A stretch of 46,216 bases of DNA from a virus: IMG/VR virus record IMGVR_UViG_3300017917_002425, positions 1-46,216 of that record; one strand, written 5' to 3'. Positions 23,870 through 36,865 of the stretch are shown here, piece by piece; the first letter of the stretch is position 1; each line of letters starts with the position of its first letter. The translations under genes and the position numbers were made by a program. The notes beneath the pieces were generated by a model, which did no database searches, was not told the DNA's origin, and saw only the letters and a list, made by a program, of their open reading frames with translations.

Positions 23870-23904
23870 TAGTAATTTTCAATTTTAAACTTAAGGAGAT
23901 GTAT

Positions 23905-24444
23905 ATGAAAACTGTAGGACAGAAGTTAGAACCATTTGTGGTCACAGGCGTTAAACCAGGACAACCAGAAGATGCTTTTTTTGATATCACTGAAGAAAGT
24001 TTTCCAGGTAAGTGGAAAGTAATCGTTTACTATCCAAAAGATTTTACATTTGTATGCCCAACAGAAATTGTTGCATACGACAAACTAGCACAGGACTTTG
24101 CTGACCGTGACGCTGTATTGCTCACAGGGTCAACAGACAACGAGTTCTGTAAGGTAGCTTGGCAAAATGCACACGAGGATTTGAAGAAGATCACTCACAC
24201 ACAGTTTGCTGACACACAGCGTGGTGAGAAGTCATTGATCGAGCAGTTAGGTGTATTCTATGCTCCAGCTGGTGCTGCACTTCGCGCAACATTCATCGTT
24301 GACCCTAACAACGAAATCCAGCATGTGACAGTAAACAACTTGAATGTTGGCCGCAGTCCAGAAGAAACATTACGTATCTTGGATGCACTTCAAACCGGAG
24401 AGTTGTGTGCATGTAATCGTAAAGTAGGCGGGGAGACACTGTAA
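23905..24444 (+). CDS. ahpC: Alkyl hydroperoxide reductase, 2-Cys peroxiredoxin
   Basis: 179 residues from the ATG at 23905, chosen because AAGGAG ends 6 bases before it; ATG 23899 lies too close. Peroxidatic Cys51 sits in FTFVCPTE. Two C-terminal cysteines, Cys168 and Cys170 in GELCACN, match the AhpD-dependent type of mycobacteria. The enzyme reduces H2O2, organic peroxides and peroxynitrite and is recharged by a thiol donor. The next gene encodes that donor, AhpD, with a one-base overlap. The codon choice looks slightly richer in G/C than neighbouring unknown genes, so recent acquisition is possible but not measured. Confidence 0.95.
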   Translation: MKTVGQKLEPFVVTGVKPGQPEDAFFDITEESFPGKWKVIVYYPKDFTFVCPTEIVAYDKLAQDFADRDAVLLTGSTDNEFCKVAWQNAHEDLKKITHTQFADTQRGEKSLIEQLGVFYAPAGAALRATFIVDPNNEIQHVTVNNLNVGRSPEETLRILDALQTGELCACNRKVGGETL

Positions 24445-24950
24445 TGGCATTCAATGACTCAGTCAAAGAAGCCTTGCCAGAATACGCAAAGGACACCAAG
24501 TTAAACTTGGACGCTGTCCTTTTGCGTAGCACATTGGATGCAGATGTGGCCATGGGTTGTGCTGTGGCCGCACTGGCCGCAACAGGCAACGGCAAATTAG
24601 TTAGTTTAATTTTAGCAGACGCACCCATTCACGCAGATGCCGCAATGACTGCCGCAAGTATTATGGCACAGAACAACGTATGGTATCCTTATGTTGAAAT
24701 GGCCGATGACGAACAGCTAAAGGGTTTACCAGCGCAGTTACGCATGAATGCTATTGCGAGTCATGGAGGAACTACCAAGGCAAACTTTGAAGCGTTTAGT
24801 CTAGCCGCTAGCATTGTTGGCAAGTGTCATTTCTGTGTTAAGGCACACTACGACACACTCAAGAAGGAAGGCTATACAGTAGAACAACTTCGTGATATTG
24901 GACGCATTGCCGCAGTAATGAATAGTGTAGCAAAAGTTTTAAACAGTTAA
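24444..24950 (+). CDS. ahpD: Alkyl hydroperoxide reductase AhpD, thiol donor for AhpC
   Basis: 168 residues. The catalytic set Glu116, Cys128, Cys131 and His135 (FEAF...GKCHFCVKAH) is offset by exactly two from the mycobacterial AhpD residues E118/C130/C133/H137 as I remember them. AhpD passes electrons from a lipoylated partner to the resolving disulphide of AhpC. Its ATG shares one base with the ahpC stop (TAATG). A strong bidirectional terminator follows. Confidence 0.93.
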   Translation: MAFNDSVKEALPEYAKDTKLNLDAVLLRSTLDADVAMGCAVAALAATGNGKLVSLILADAPIHADAAMTAASIMAQNNVWYPYVEMADDEQLKGLPAQLRMNAIASHGGTTKANFEAFSLAASIVGKCHFCVKAHYDTLKKEGYTVEQLRDIGRIAAVMNSVAKVLNS

Positions 24951-24967: not shown

Positions 24968-24992
24968 AAAAAGCCCCTTTCGGGGCTTTTTT
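24968..24992. terminator. Bidirectional Rho-independent terminator
   Basis: AAAAAGCCCC and GGGGCTTTTTT pair around TTTC. The T-run on one strand and A-run on the other let it end both the ahpCD transcript and the convergent terC transcript. Confidence 0.92.
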
Positions 24993-25686: not shown

Positions 25687-25785
25687 TTTACTACTCCTTT
25701 AAAAGAGTATATCATGGATCTGTCGCCAGAACCTGCAGATTGATGTAGAGAGATTATGAGGATTGAGTGATCCATAATATACTTT

Positions 25786-25897
25786 AATATTATGGTCTTG
25801 TCCAGAACCCATTTCCCTTATGCACCGAGCTGTTAAGCCGAATTGACGATGCGTAAGCCTCTTAACTTAAGAGTGGACTACTCCCCATGCAAATATT
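25786..25897 (-). ncRNA. yybP-ykoY manganese riboswitch in the terC leader
   Basis: On the minus strand the leader shows the family landmarks in order. P1 is AATATT (25897-25892) with AATATT (25791-25786). Next come the invariant GGGGAGTAG (25886-25878) and P2 GTCCA with TGGAC. CTCTTA/TAAGAG forms a hairpin. The metal-binding loop segment CGTCAATTCG is followed by GCT-TAAC-AGC and the matching arm TCGG. The closing AAGACC is at 25799-25794. These match the L. lactis and E. coli Mn sensors as I recall them. Downstream, ATGGATC (25775-25769) pairs with GATCCAT (25720-25714) and may form part of the switch. There is no T-run, so control is probably at translation. Confidence 0.93.
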
Positions 25898-25903
25898 TAG
25901 TAT

Positions 25904-25937
25904 TTGTAATAAAATTGTAATACTTTAGCCCTTAAAT
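25904..25937 (+). promoter_or_regulatory. Pho-box-like promoter for pstS
   Basis: TTGTAAT (25904-25910) and TTGTAAT (25915-25921) are perfect 7-bp repeats separated by AAAA, an exact 11-bp period. The PhoB half-site consensus is CTGTCAT. Ten bases later, TTAAAT (25932-25937) sits where the -10 lies in PhoB-activated promoters. There is no normal -35. The site abuts the 5' end of the opposite terC riboswitch, so PhoB binding could affect both genes. Confidence 0.62.
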
Positions 25938-25974
25938 ATTATTGTGCAATCGCACAACAACTAAGGAGATCTCT

Positions 25975-26976
25975 TTGAAACATTTCATTTTAGCAGTATT
26001 AGCCTCATTCGCATTATCAGCACAAGCCGCAGACATTACAGGTGCAGGTGCTACATTTCCATATCCTATCTATTCTAAATGGGCAGAAGATTACGCAAAA
26101 CTTTCTAGCAATCGTTTGAACTATCAAAGCATTGGCAGTTCTGGCGGTGTTAAACAAATCAAAGGTGGTACTGTACACTTTGGTGCTACAGATGCTCCGT
26201 TGTCCGGTGACGACCTGGCCAAGTCTGGATTAGTTCAGTTTCCAGCAATCCTAGGCGGCGTTGTTCCAGTAGTAAACTTAGAAGGAGTTAAACCTGGTGA
26301 GTTGACGCTTACTGGCGAAGTGCTAGCCGACATTTACTTAGGCACAATTACTCGATGGAATGATGCTCGTATTGCAAAGTTGAATCCAGGCAAGACATTA
26401 CCGGCACAAGAAATCACAGTAGTGCATCGTGCAGACGGTTCTGGAACAACATTTATTTTTACCGATTACTTAACGGAAGTCAGTAAAGCCTGGTCAGATC
26501 GTGTGGGCAAAGGTGCCGCGGTTAAATGGCCAGCCGCAAGCAGTGTAGGTGGAAAAGGCAACGAAGGTGTGGCTGCTAATGTGGTCCGTGTTAAAGGTGC
26601 TATTGGTTATGTTGAATATGCTTATGCTAAGAAAAACCGAATCACACACTTAAAACTACAAAACCGTGAAGGCAAAGTTGTAGAACCAGATGATATTACT
26701 TTCGCCAGTGCTGCCGCAAAGGCAAACTGGTTTGGCACTCCTGGCATGGGTATCAGTTTGGTAAATCAAAAAGGTGCCAGTGCTTGGCCAATTACAGGTG
26801 CTAGTTTTATTTTAGTTCCTGCTAAAGGTAATGCTAGCACAGATGAAGTATTAAAGTTTTTTGAGTACGGATTTACATATGGCGGCAAGGCTGCCGCAGA
26901 GTTAGATTATGTTTCATTACCTAAAGAACTAACAGATAAGATCAAATCTCAAGTTTGGACTACAATTAAAAAGTAA
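25975..26976 (+). CDS. pstS: Periplasmic phosphate-binding protein PstS
   Basis: 333 residues from a TTG start at 25975, preceded by AAGGAG with good spacing; a longer ATG frame from 25942 would add 11 residues before the signal peptide. The signal peptide is MKHFILAVLASFALSAQA, cut before ADITGAG. Phosphate-binding loops are visible as GAGATFPYPIY, IGSSGGV and RADGSGTTF. PstS captures phosphate in the periplasm for the host PstCAB transporter, so phage supply raises host uptake during infection. Cyanophages carry the same gene under Pho-box control. No pstCAB genes are in the window. Confidence 0.95.
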   Translation: MKHFILAVLASFALSAQAADITGAGATFPYPIYSKWAEDYAKLSSNRLNYQSIGSSGGVKQIKGGTVHFGATDAPLSGDDLAKSGLVQFPAILGGVVPVVNLEGVKPGELTLTGEVLADIYLGTITRWNDARIAKLNPGKTLPAQEITVVHRADGSGTTFIFTDYLTEVSKAWSDRVGKGAAVKWPAASSVGGKGNEGVAANVVRVKGAIGYVEYAYAKKNRITHLKLQNREGKVVEPDDITFASAAAKANWFGTPGMGISLVNQKGASAWPITGASFILVPAKGNASTDEVLKFFEYGFTYGGKAAAELDYVSLPKELTDKIKSQVWTTIKK

Positions 26977-35990: not shown

Positions 35991-36542
35991 ATGAGATCCA
36001 TACGACAAGACATTAAATTAGTAGAACAAAGCACTCGTCCAGCTAAACTGGAAACTACTCCTTTACCTTTTGCTGAAAATGCATTAGAACCAGTGATGTC
36101 AAAGGCAACTATCGATTATCACTATGAGCATCTTGCTAAGGGCTATGCTAAACGCTATAATGCAGGTGAAGGTAATGCTAATTTTAACCGTGCTGGATCG
36201 TTTTTACATAATAAATTTTTCCCACAATTGCGTGCTCCAAAAGGTGCTAATCGCCCTAAGGGTGCTGTGCTAGAGCTTATTGAAAGCAACTTTAAAACCT
36301 ATGAAGACTTTAAAGCAGAATTTAAAAAGGTGGCCATGGCTGTCCAGGGATCGGGCTGGGTATATCTTAGCACATCGGGCGCGATTAAAACTATCCCAAA
36401 CCATCAGGTTAGAACAGATATCTGTGTACTCGTTGACTGGTGGGAACACGCTTGGGCTCTAGATTACCAAAGCGATAAAGAAAAATATCTAGATAACATT
36501 TGGAAGATTATTAATTGGGACGTTTGTTCTGAAAGATTATGA
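35991..36542 (+). CDS. Fe/Mn superoxide dismutase
   Basis: 183 residues. Metal ligands by position: His44 ([10 protein letters not shown]), His73 ([10 protein letters not shown]), Asp149 and His153 ([11 protein letters not shown]). The first helix hairpin and the DxWEHA signature are typical; spacing around His73 is one residue shorter than in E. coli enzymes, as I recall for phage versions. It converts superoxide to H2O2 and O2. With AhpC/AhpD it would form a two-step detoxification route. GATAAATA (35978-35985) lies immediately before the ATG, overlapping the previous stop. Confidence 0.92.
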
Positions 36543-36865
36543 TTACGATAACTGAATCAGCAGTAGCAAAAATACGCGATATTATCGCAGAAGAAAATAA
36601 CCCTAGTTTAAAATTACGTGTGTTTGTCCAAGGTGGCGGATGCTCGGGTTTTCAATATGGGTTTACACTTGATGATACTCAAGCAGAAGACGACTGGACT
36701 TTAGATATTAACGGAATACAAGTTCTAGTAGATTCAATGTCGGGCGGTTATTTACAGGGTGCCGAAATTGACTACAAAGATGATGTTATGGGTAGTAGTT
36801 TTAGTATCAACAATCCAAACGCACAAACTACCTGCGGTTGCGGTAGCTCATTTAGCCCTTACTAA
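36539..36865 (+). CDS. A-type iron-sulphur carrier (ErpA/IscA-like)
   Basis: 108 residues with the three conserved cysteines: Cys35 in GGGCSGFQY, and Cys99 and Cys101 in TTCGCGSSF. The fold landmarks [20 protein letters not shown] and [11 protein letters not shown] match ErpA. The protein receives Fe-S clusters and inserts them in target enzymes such as radical SAM proteins, one of which is encoded at 30549-31961. It overlaps the superoxide dismutase gene by four bases. Confidence 0.92.

Follow-up and report, generated by a model that had tools for sequence, protein, structure and literature searches.

The terC locus and its phage setting

The window, by which we mean the whole stretch of DNA analyzed here, is an entire IMG/VR virus record of 46,216 bp and is probably a genome fragment. 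On its minus strand lies terC, which encodes a YjbE-type membrane protein of the TerC family, and the leader of this gene carries a T4-late-promoter-like element, an RNA element of the yybP-ykoY (Mn2+) class and predicted hairpins (Table 1). The TerC protein scores 204.8 bits against the NCBIfam model TIGR03717 ("R_switched_YjbE"; cut-off 134.8). A preliminary description of this locus, drawn up from the sequence alone, had proposed a manganese riboswitch controlling a TerC-family gene in a T4-like phage, and its assignment of the gene to the TerC family held.

Table 1. Features of the terC leader and of other regions of the window (positions in the window).
Feature	Position	Strand	Sequence	Basis or remark
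T4-late-promoter-like element	25894..25901	minus	ACTAAATA; core TAAATA, 25894-25899	predicted transcription start ~25888
yybP-ykoY (Mn2+) aptamer	about 25788-25888 (parts 25792..25888)	minus		R1, 47.5 bits; R2, 54.8 bits
P1.1	25885-25888 with 25792-25795	minus	AUGG with CCAU	4 bp in the window
L1	25878-25886	minus	GGGGAGUAG (motif GGGGAGTAG)	invariant in class
P2 hairpin	25859..25873	minus	CUCUUAAGUUAAGAG	covarying helix in relatives (helix 3)
P3/L3/P3.1 arm	25817..25857	minus		covarying helices 4 and 5
L3, putative Mn-sensing loop	25840-25846	minus	UCAAUUC (TCAATTC within CGTCAATTCG)	same as L. lactis L3
Small predicted P4 hairpin	25805..25815	minus	GAAAUGGGUUC	single-sequence fold; alignments
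Closing strand	25794-25799	minus	AAGACC	
Anti-P1 hairpin, 9 bp	25772..25795	minus	CCAUAAUAU/AUAUUAUGG	mutually exclusive with P1.1
Hairpin sequestering the terC Shine-Dalgarno	25692..25710	minus	AUACUCUUUUAAAGGAGUA; AAGGAG, 25694-25699	predicted fold only
terC, 231 aa	24991..25686	minus		PF03741, E 1.9e-41; TIGR03717
GC-rich terminator-like hairpin between ahpD and terC	24968..24991	both	AAAAAGCCCC..GGGGCTTTTT	palindromic, flanking A-/T-runs; reported on plus strand
ahpC-like and ahpD-like genes	23899-24950	plus		convergent with terC
pstS-like phosphate-binding protein gene	25933-26976	plus	TAAATA, 25933-25938	divergent from terC; start probably TTG 25975
ClpP-like head maturation protease genes	313-891 and 2371-2964	plus		two neighbouring genes
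Fe/Mn superoxide dismutase gene	35991-36542	plus		PF02777, E 2.5e-23
Dismutase plus A-type iron-sulphur carrier	35991-36865	plus		carrier, PF01521

The affiliation with T4-like phages also held. The window encodes a gp44-type clamp loader of the T4 kind (phrog_168, E 2e-77) together with head maturation proteases, endolysins and an endonuclease VII-like protein, and the three largest contigs that bear the same switch (215-357 kb) carry homologues of both gp23 and gp55. As part of the best explanation set out below, the carrier is very likely a lytic T4-like phage of freshwater type, with dozens of uncultured relatives that share terC and the switch. No near-identical DNA was found among phage records.

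Several observations concern the surrounding genes. Between the two head maturation protease genes lies an ORF of 475 aa on the opposite strand, without a PHROGs or Pfam family match. The pstS-like gene has a TAAATA of its own, and another TAAATA stands just upstream of the start of the superoxide dismutase gene, which is followed directly by the gene for the iron-sulphur carrier. In the relatives L080, L062 and L072, terC lies directly downstream of ahpC or ahpD; this neighbourhood suggests a cluster of oxidative-stress and metal genes.

An aptamer of the yybP-ykoY class

The aptamer takes up about 100 of the nucleotides between 25687 and 25974, the interval to which it had been assigned; the remainder is leader down to the ribosome-binding site (RBS) and the side of the divergent pstS-like gene. 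The motifs quoted in the preliminary description are all present on the minus strand, in order and with paired arms between them. L1 meets the class sequence, GGGGAGUA(G/A) opposite (G/A)AGA between P1.1 and P1.2 (25878-25886 and 25794-25799), and both GGGGAGUA and GGGGAGTA of L1 are unchanged in the alignment rows of all 43 phage leaders. In the crystal structure of the Lactococcus lactis (L. lactis) aptamer, L3 reads UCA41AU43UC, and the Mn2+-specific contact is made by N7 of A41 (PMC6754395). The L3 of the window is identical to this Mn-binding loop. The Mn-contacting adenosine (A41 in L. lactis, A48 in X. oryzae) is thus present, its equivalent being the A at 25844; that it binds Mn2+ here is inferred.

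TerC relatives were taken from viral contigs at 80 loci. Removal of duplicates left 43 distinct phage leaders with the motif, a number that includes the window as well as L082, a leader picked up through the pattern. The covariation set, from which the covariance model R1 was also made, comprised 39 phage leaders and left out the window and its three long-form relatives. Without a supplied structure, RNAalifold recovered P1.1, P1.2, P2, P3 and P3.1 from the phage leaders. Standard pairs fill 96.7% of the pair cells in the 39 leaders, as against 34-44% in slid structures, and two-sided changes occur at 17 of 26 pairs; the bacterial set is 97.3% paired, with two-sided changes at 22 of 26. P1.1 never varies in the phages and thus has no covariation of its own.

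R1 has a single match in the window (25790-25890, minus strand; 47.5 bits, E 9e-11 over 218 kb). It also matches mntP (26.8 bits) and the L. lactis element (20.4 bits), and alx weakly (14.6 bits, E 0.34). A second model, R2, rests on 31 chromosomal-type matches and contains no T4-like phage leader; mntP is among the 31, as is the L. lactis element, which sits on a prophage-bearing contig. R2 finds the same site in the window (54.8 bits, E 6e-11) as well as the validated alx element, which had been held out (37.5 bits, E 1e-6), and gives no match in otagovirus terC leaders or in T4/gp23 control regions. Because the R2 alignment was fitted through R1, the two models are not fully independent; the window is in neither.

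The preliminary description had proposed a search with Rfam RF00080 in Infernal and had held that a score below the family threshold would refute it. Formally, this check failed: the window scores 11.3 bits against a cut-off of 45, with no match at gathering level and no usable signal at relaxed thresholds. The refutation is met on paper, but is uninformative, because validated positive controls miss the same cut-off. At its gathering threshold, RF00080 (Rfam 15) recovers neither alx nor mntP of E. coli K-12, nor the L. lactis element, nor any of the eleven chromosomal (bacterial) terC leaders tested. Thus, the curated cut-off misses every yybP-ykoY member tested singly, and phage and bacterial copies alike are probably under-annotated.

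A late-promoter-like sequence abutting the aptamer

In 43 of 43 distinct phage leaders, TAAATA ends 4-8 nt (mode 5) before GGGGAGTA/GGGG. At that position it occurs in 0 of the 19 chromosomal terC leaders listed and is absent in alx and mntP. The TAAATA at this place in the L. lactis leader is a chance occurrence; that leader has a sigma-70-type promoter upstream. The hexamer is depleted in the window as a whole (25 observed, 68 +/- 8 simulated), where it is the rarest of its 15 permutations. Its share just upstream of ORFs is the highest among the permutations in 8 of 8 stretches tested, albeit on small counts.

The consensus of T4 late promoters is TATAAATA, with TAAATA as its core. The hexamer matches this consensus only partly. 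Judged by the spacing known from T4 promoters, the RNA would begin at about 25888, on the first base of P1.1, an inference for which there are no start-site data. The 46-kb window fragment yielded no late sigma factor of the gp55 type; the one encoded by the three switch-bearing relatives of 215-357 kb is recognized with E values of 1e-23 to 1e-27. As a positive control for late promoters, gp23 was rejected: the 120 nt upstream of it contain no TAAATA, probably because the gene is co-transcribed. The placement of this promoter core before the aptamer is established by computation; late timing of expression is inferred.

Association with TerC-family genes

Viral contigs were also scanned without regard to gene content, using the pattern TAAATA-N4-8-GGGGAGTA-N20-48-CGTCA. 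There were 99 matches in the fetched loci; the GACC strand closes 90 of them, which represent 69 distinct sequences. A TerC-family gene follows in 86 of the 90 closed matches, being TerC in 76 and a second, Alx-type TerC branch in 10. As for the other four, the contig ends before any gene is found in three, and in one the ORF picked has no recognized gene. One of the three contig-end matches, L238, is probably a chance match and is not found by R1.

Members of the second branch (about 313 aa) stand behind the promoter-aptamer unit in L082, L211, L223, L262, L265, L281 and others. The gene preceding the unit often encodes a protein of about 195 aa, judged HAD-like by eye (L003, L005, L013, L036, L048, L069 and others), and its stop codon falls within or just before the TAAATA promoter. 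Some phage terC genes lack the aptamer and start directly behind another gene (L057, L060, L061, L063, L065, L067 and L073-L080).

Chance resemblance, in which short motifs fall in the expected order without shared ancestry, could be argued from the sub-threshold RF00080 score. Against it stand E values near 1e-10 from two models built without the window, the covariation, the TerC-family association in 86 of 90 matches and the failure of Rfam on positive controls, and we regard this explanation as all but excluded. The identification as a yybP-ykoY Mn2+ riboswitch thus held, on the strength of covariation, of two covariance models made without the window, of an intact L1/L3 core and of gene context. 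The terC leader is a genuine aptamer of this class. It is class membership and the association with TerC-family genes that the computation establishes; Mn2+ binding and Mn2+-dependent expression are inferred from it.

A proposed switching mechanism

The best overall explanation, which we hold to be very likely, is that of a Mn2+ riboswitch with its own late-type promoter and Mn2+-ON control of terC in a lytic T4-like phage; Mn2+ binding, the ON direction, late timing and the activity of TerC are its inferred elements. The terC mRNA would be transcribed from this promoter, starting at or a few nucleotides from the first base of the aptamer. Plentiful Mn2+ would dock L1 to L3, with the A at 25844 contacting the metal, and docking would stabilize P1.1 (AUGG/CCAU) and so break the competing hairpin, in which the CCAU strand is used a second time. 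With that hairpin broken, terC expression would be ON, most likely at translation, and late in infection TerC would then either pump Mn2+ out of the cell or deliver it to exported proteins.

Most relatives have a short form of the leader, in which the start codon of terC (AUGG) is paired with the CCAU strand and the Shine-Dalgarno falls in the loop. Stem length is 4-9 bp in most of these and only 3 bp in four; P1.1 is only 2 bp (GG/CC) in most relatives. The start-codon hairpins of most short forms change in sequence yet keep pairing (CCATAA/TTATGG, CCATTTTAA/TTAAAATGG). Given this hairpin, Mn2+ is predicted to turn translation on in the short forms, as for mntP, which is a precedent for Mn-dependent exposure of the RBS (PMC11647493).

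We found no intrinsic terminator after the aptamer. There is no U-run behind the 9-bp anti-P1 hairpin of the window, which is therefore not such a terminator. About 85 nt separate this hairpin from the start codon downstream of it, and it is not beside the RBS, which is further downstream in a predicted hairpin of its own. Because of that distance, the last step from the anti-P1 hairpin to translation remains unresolved in the window, a point that counts against the best explanation, as do the short P1.1, the lack of Mn2+ binding or expression data, the missing late sigma factor in the fragment and the partial match of TAAATA to the T4 consensus. Computed energies favour the competing hairpin in the absence of ligand, as expected for an OFF state; they do not include the tertiary contacts of the Mn-docked form.

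Two further features of the leader were noticed. The Shine-Dalgarno and L1 both read GGAGUAGU, and a pairing of L1 with the anti-Shine-Dalgarno strand can be envisaged, though this is speculative. In the long form, an open frame runs from an AUG in the anti-P1 hairpin (25775, minus strand) into terC out of frame. We set this leader ORF aside as a candidate gene: by eye it is open in the long-form copies, and the differences compared between the window and L002 are mostly non-synonymous, and a brief inspection gave no hint of coding constraint.

A different reading of the leader is that the class fold has been kept by descent, yet serves as a constitutive mRNA leader (for stability or translation) or is governed chiefly by some other signal, for example pH, which has been proposed for alx. 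The shortness of P1.1 and the remoteness of the anti-P1 hairpin of the window from the RBS favour this reading, and the alx leader has also been described as alkali-responsive (PMC9603457). However, the L1 and L3 CGUCA core does not vary among the 43 phage leaders, whose helices nonetheless continue to covary, and a loss of metal binding should relax L1 and L3 first. Further, the partner strand of anti-P1 still pairs in most relatives. We therefore consider this reading unlikely and retain the Mn2+-ON switch.

The preliminary description went further, to a phage that senses intracellular manganese and tunes an exporter, perhaps in concert with its superoxide dismutase. Neither Mn2+ binding nor the direction of regulation has been shown. 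Export is likewise not shown: in view of the TerC proteins MeeF and MeeY (PMC12096827), this TerC may either export Mn2+ or supply it to exported proteins, and the choice between export and metal loading is unsettled. The dismutase gene is indeed present (PF02777); its metal type is undetermined, and its link to the switch and TerC is not shown. With Mn2+ binding, timing and the role of TerC all inferred, it is likely that these phages sense and adjust manganese late in infection.

Origin of the unit and variation of P4

The nearest chromosomal TerC proteins are those of Polynucleobacter (59-64% identity), which form one clade with the phage TerC proteins (support 99/100). An aptamer stands before all eight Polynucleobacter terC genes (L112-L118, L173), scoring 57-68 bits with the phage model. 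The shared clade and shared aptamer thus fit the capture of gene and switch together from such a host, although the direction is not proven. That Polynucleobacter is the phage host is an inference.

This kinship bears on the possibility that the contig, or its terC region, is host DNA mis-binned as viral and that the riboswitch is an ordinary chromosomal one. The closest chromosomal relatives do share the arrangement, and the neighbouring ahpC, ahpD and pstS are bacterial-type genes. However, the window encodes the clamp loader, head proteases, endolysins and endonuclease VII-like protein described above; the terC-riboswitch unit recurs on the 215-357 kb contigs that also encode gp23 and gp55 homologues; at the place where TAAATA stands in the phage copies, Polynucleobacter has another promoter; and the identity to chromosomal TerC is only 59-64%. 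Mis-binning is thus very unlikely and largely refuted, and a phage-borne switch remains the preferred reading.

A predicted P4 hairpin is kept in the window, L002, L024, L054, L052, L069, L072 and Polynucleobacter. By alignment it is absent in 36 of the 43 phage leaders, leaving a three-way junction; the class layout is a four-way junction with P4. To our knowledge, a P4-less compact form has not been described, but we have not compared it with the full family alignment.

A bolder reading joins these points into a single claim: T4-like phages of freshwater betaproteobacteria captured a unit of terC and Mn-riboswitch, a phage late promoter took the place of the host promoter, putting the mRNA start on the aptamer, and in most lineages the aptamer was trimmed until a three-way junction without P4 remained, its 3' strand directly clamping the start codon. 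We lean toward this reading, by a narrow margin. If true, it would describe a compact metal checkpoint of late infection, one that also serves the second (Alx-type) TerC branch.

Significance and comparison with known systems

Riboswitches have been described as rare in phages (PMC9004378). In the literature searched, we found no prior report of a phage Mn riboswitch or of any metal-sensing phage riboswitch. The RNA class and its partner gene were already known, as were T4-like phages with glutamine riboswitches (PMC9004378). New, as far as we have checked, are the lytic T4-like carrier, the joined late-type promoter and the P4-less copies. A metal-sensing class is present in about 69 distinct pattern-matched viral-contig sequences, nearly always ahead of a TerC-family gene. 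This raises the testable question of whether T4-like phages manage the manganese of the cell late in infection, and why.

The TerC of the window qualifies as one of the YjbE-family putative metal transport proteins of TIGR03717, from which it differs in being phage-encoded. Otagoviruses of Pseudomonas syringae (psageK4e, REC1 and others) also encode a TerC (35-39% identical), and no aptamer was found in the leaders of these and other cultured-phage terC genes that we checked. The chromosomal terC genes of Polynucleobacter have both the closest TerC and the closest chromosomal aptamers; they differ in having TAAATA at the promoter position in 0 of 8 cases and in keeping P4 in 8 of 8. The glutamine riboswitches of T4-like marine phages (Melnitz, PMC9004378) likewise place a riboswitch in a T4-like myophage, but belong to another ligand class and have another target.

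Compared with the established yybP-ykoY members (RF00080; E. coli alx and mntP, and the L. lactis and X. oryzae aptamers), the phage copy has the same GGGGAGUAG L1, CGUCA-type L3, P1.1/P1.2/P2/P3/P3.1 layout, closing AAGACC and TerC-family target gene. It falls below the Rfam 15 cut-off, as do the bacterial members tested. What sets the phage copies apart is their lytic T4-like carriers, a late-type promoter core that abuts the 5' end of the aptamer, and a P4 that is mostly missing.
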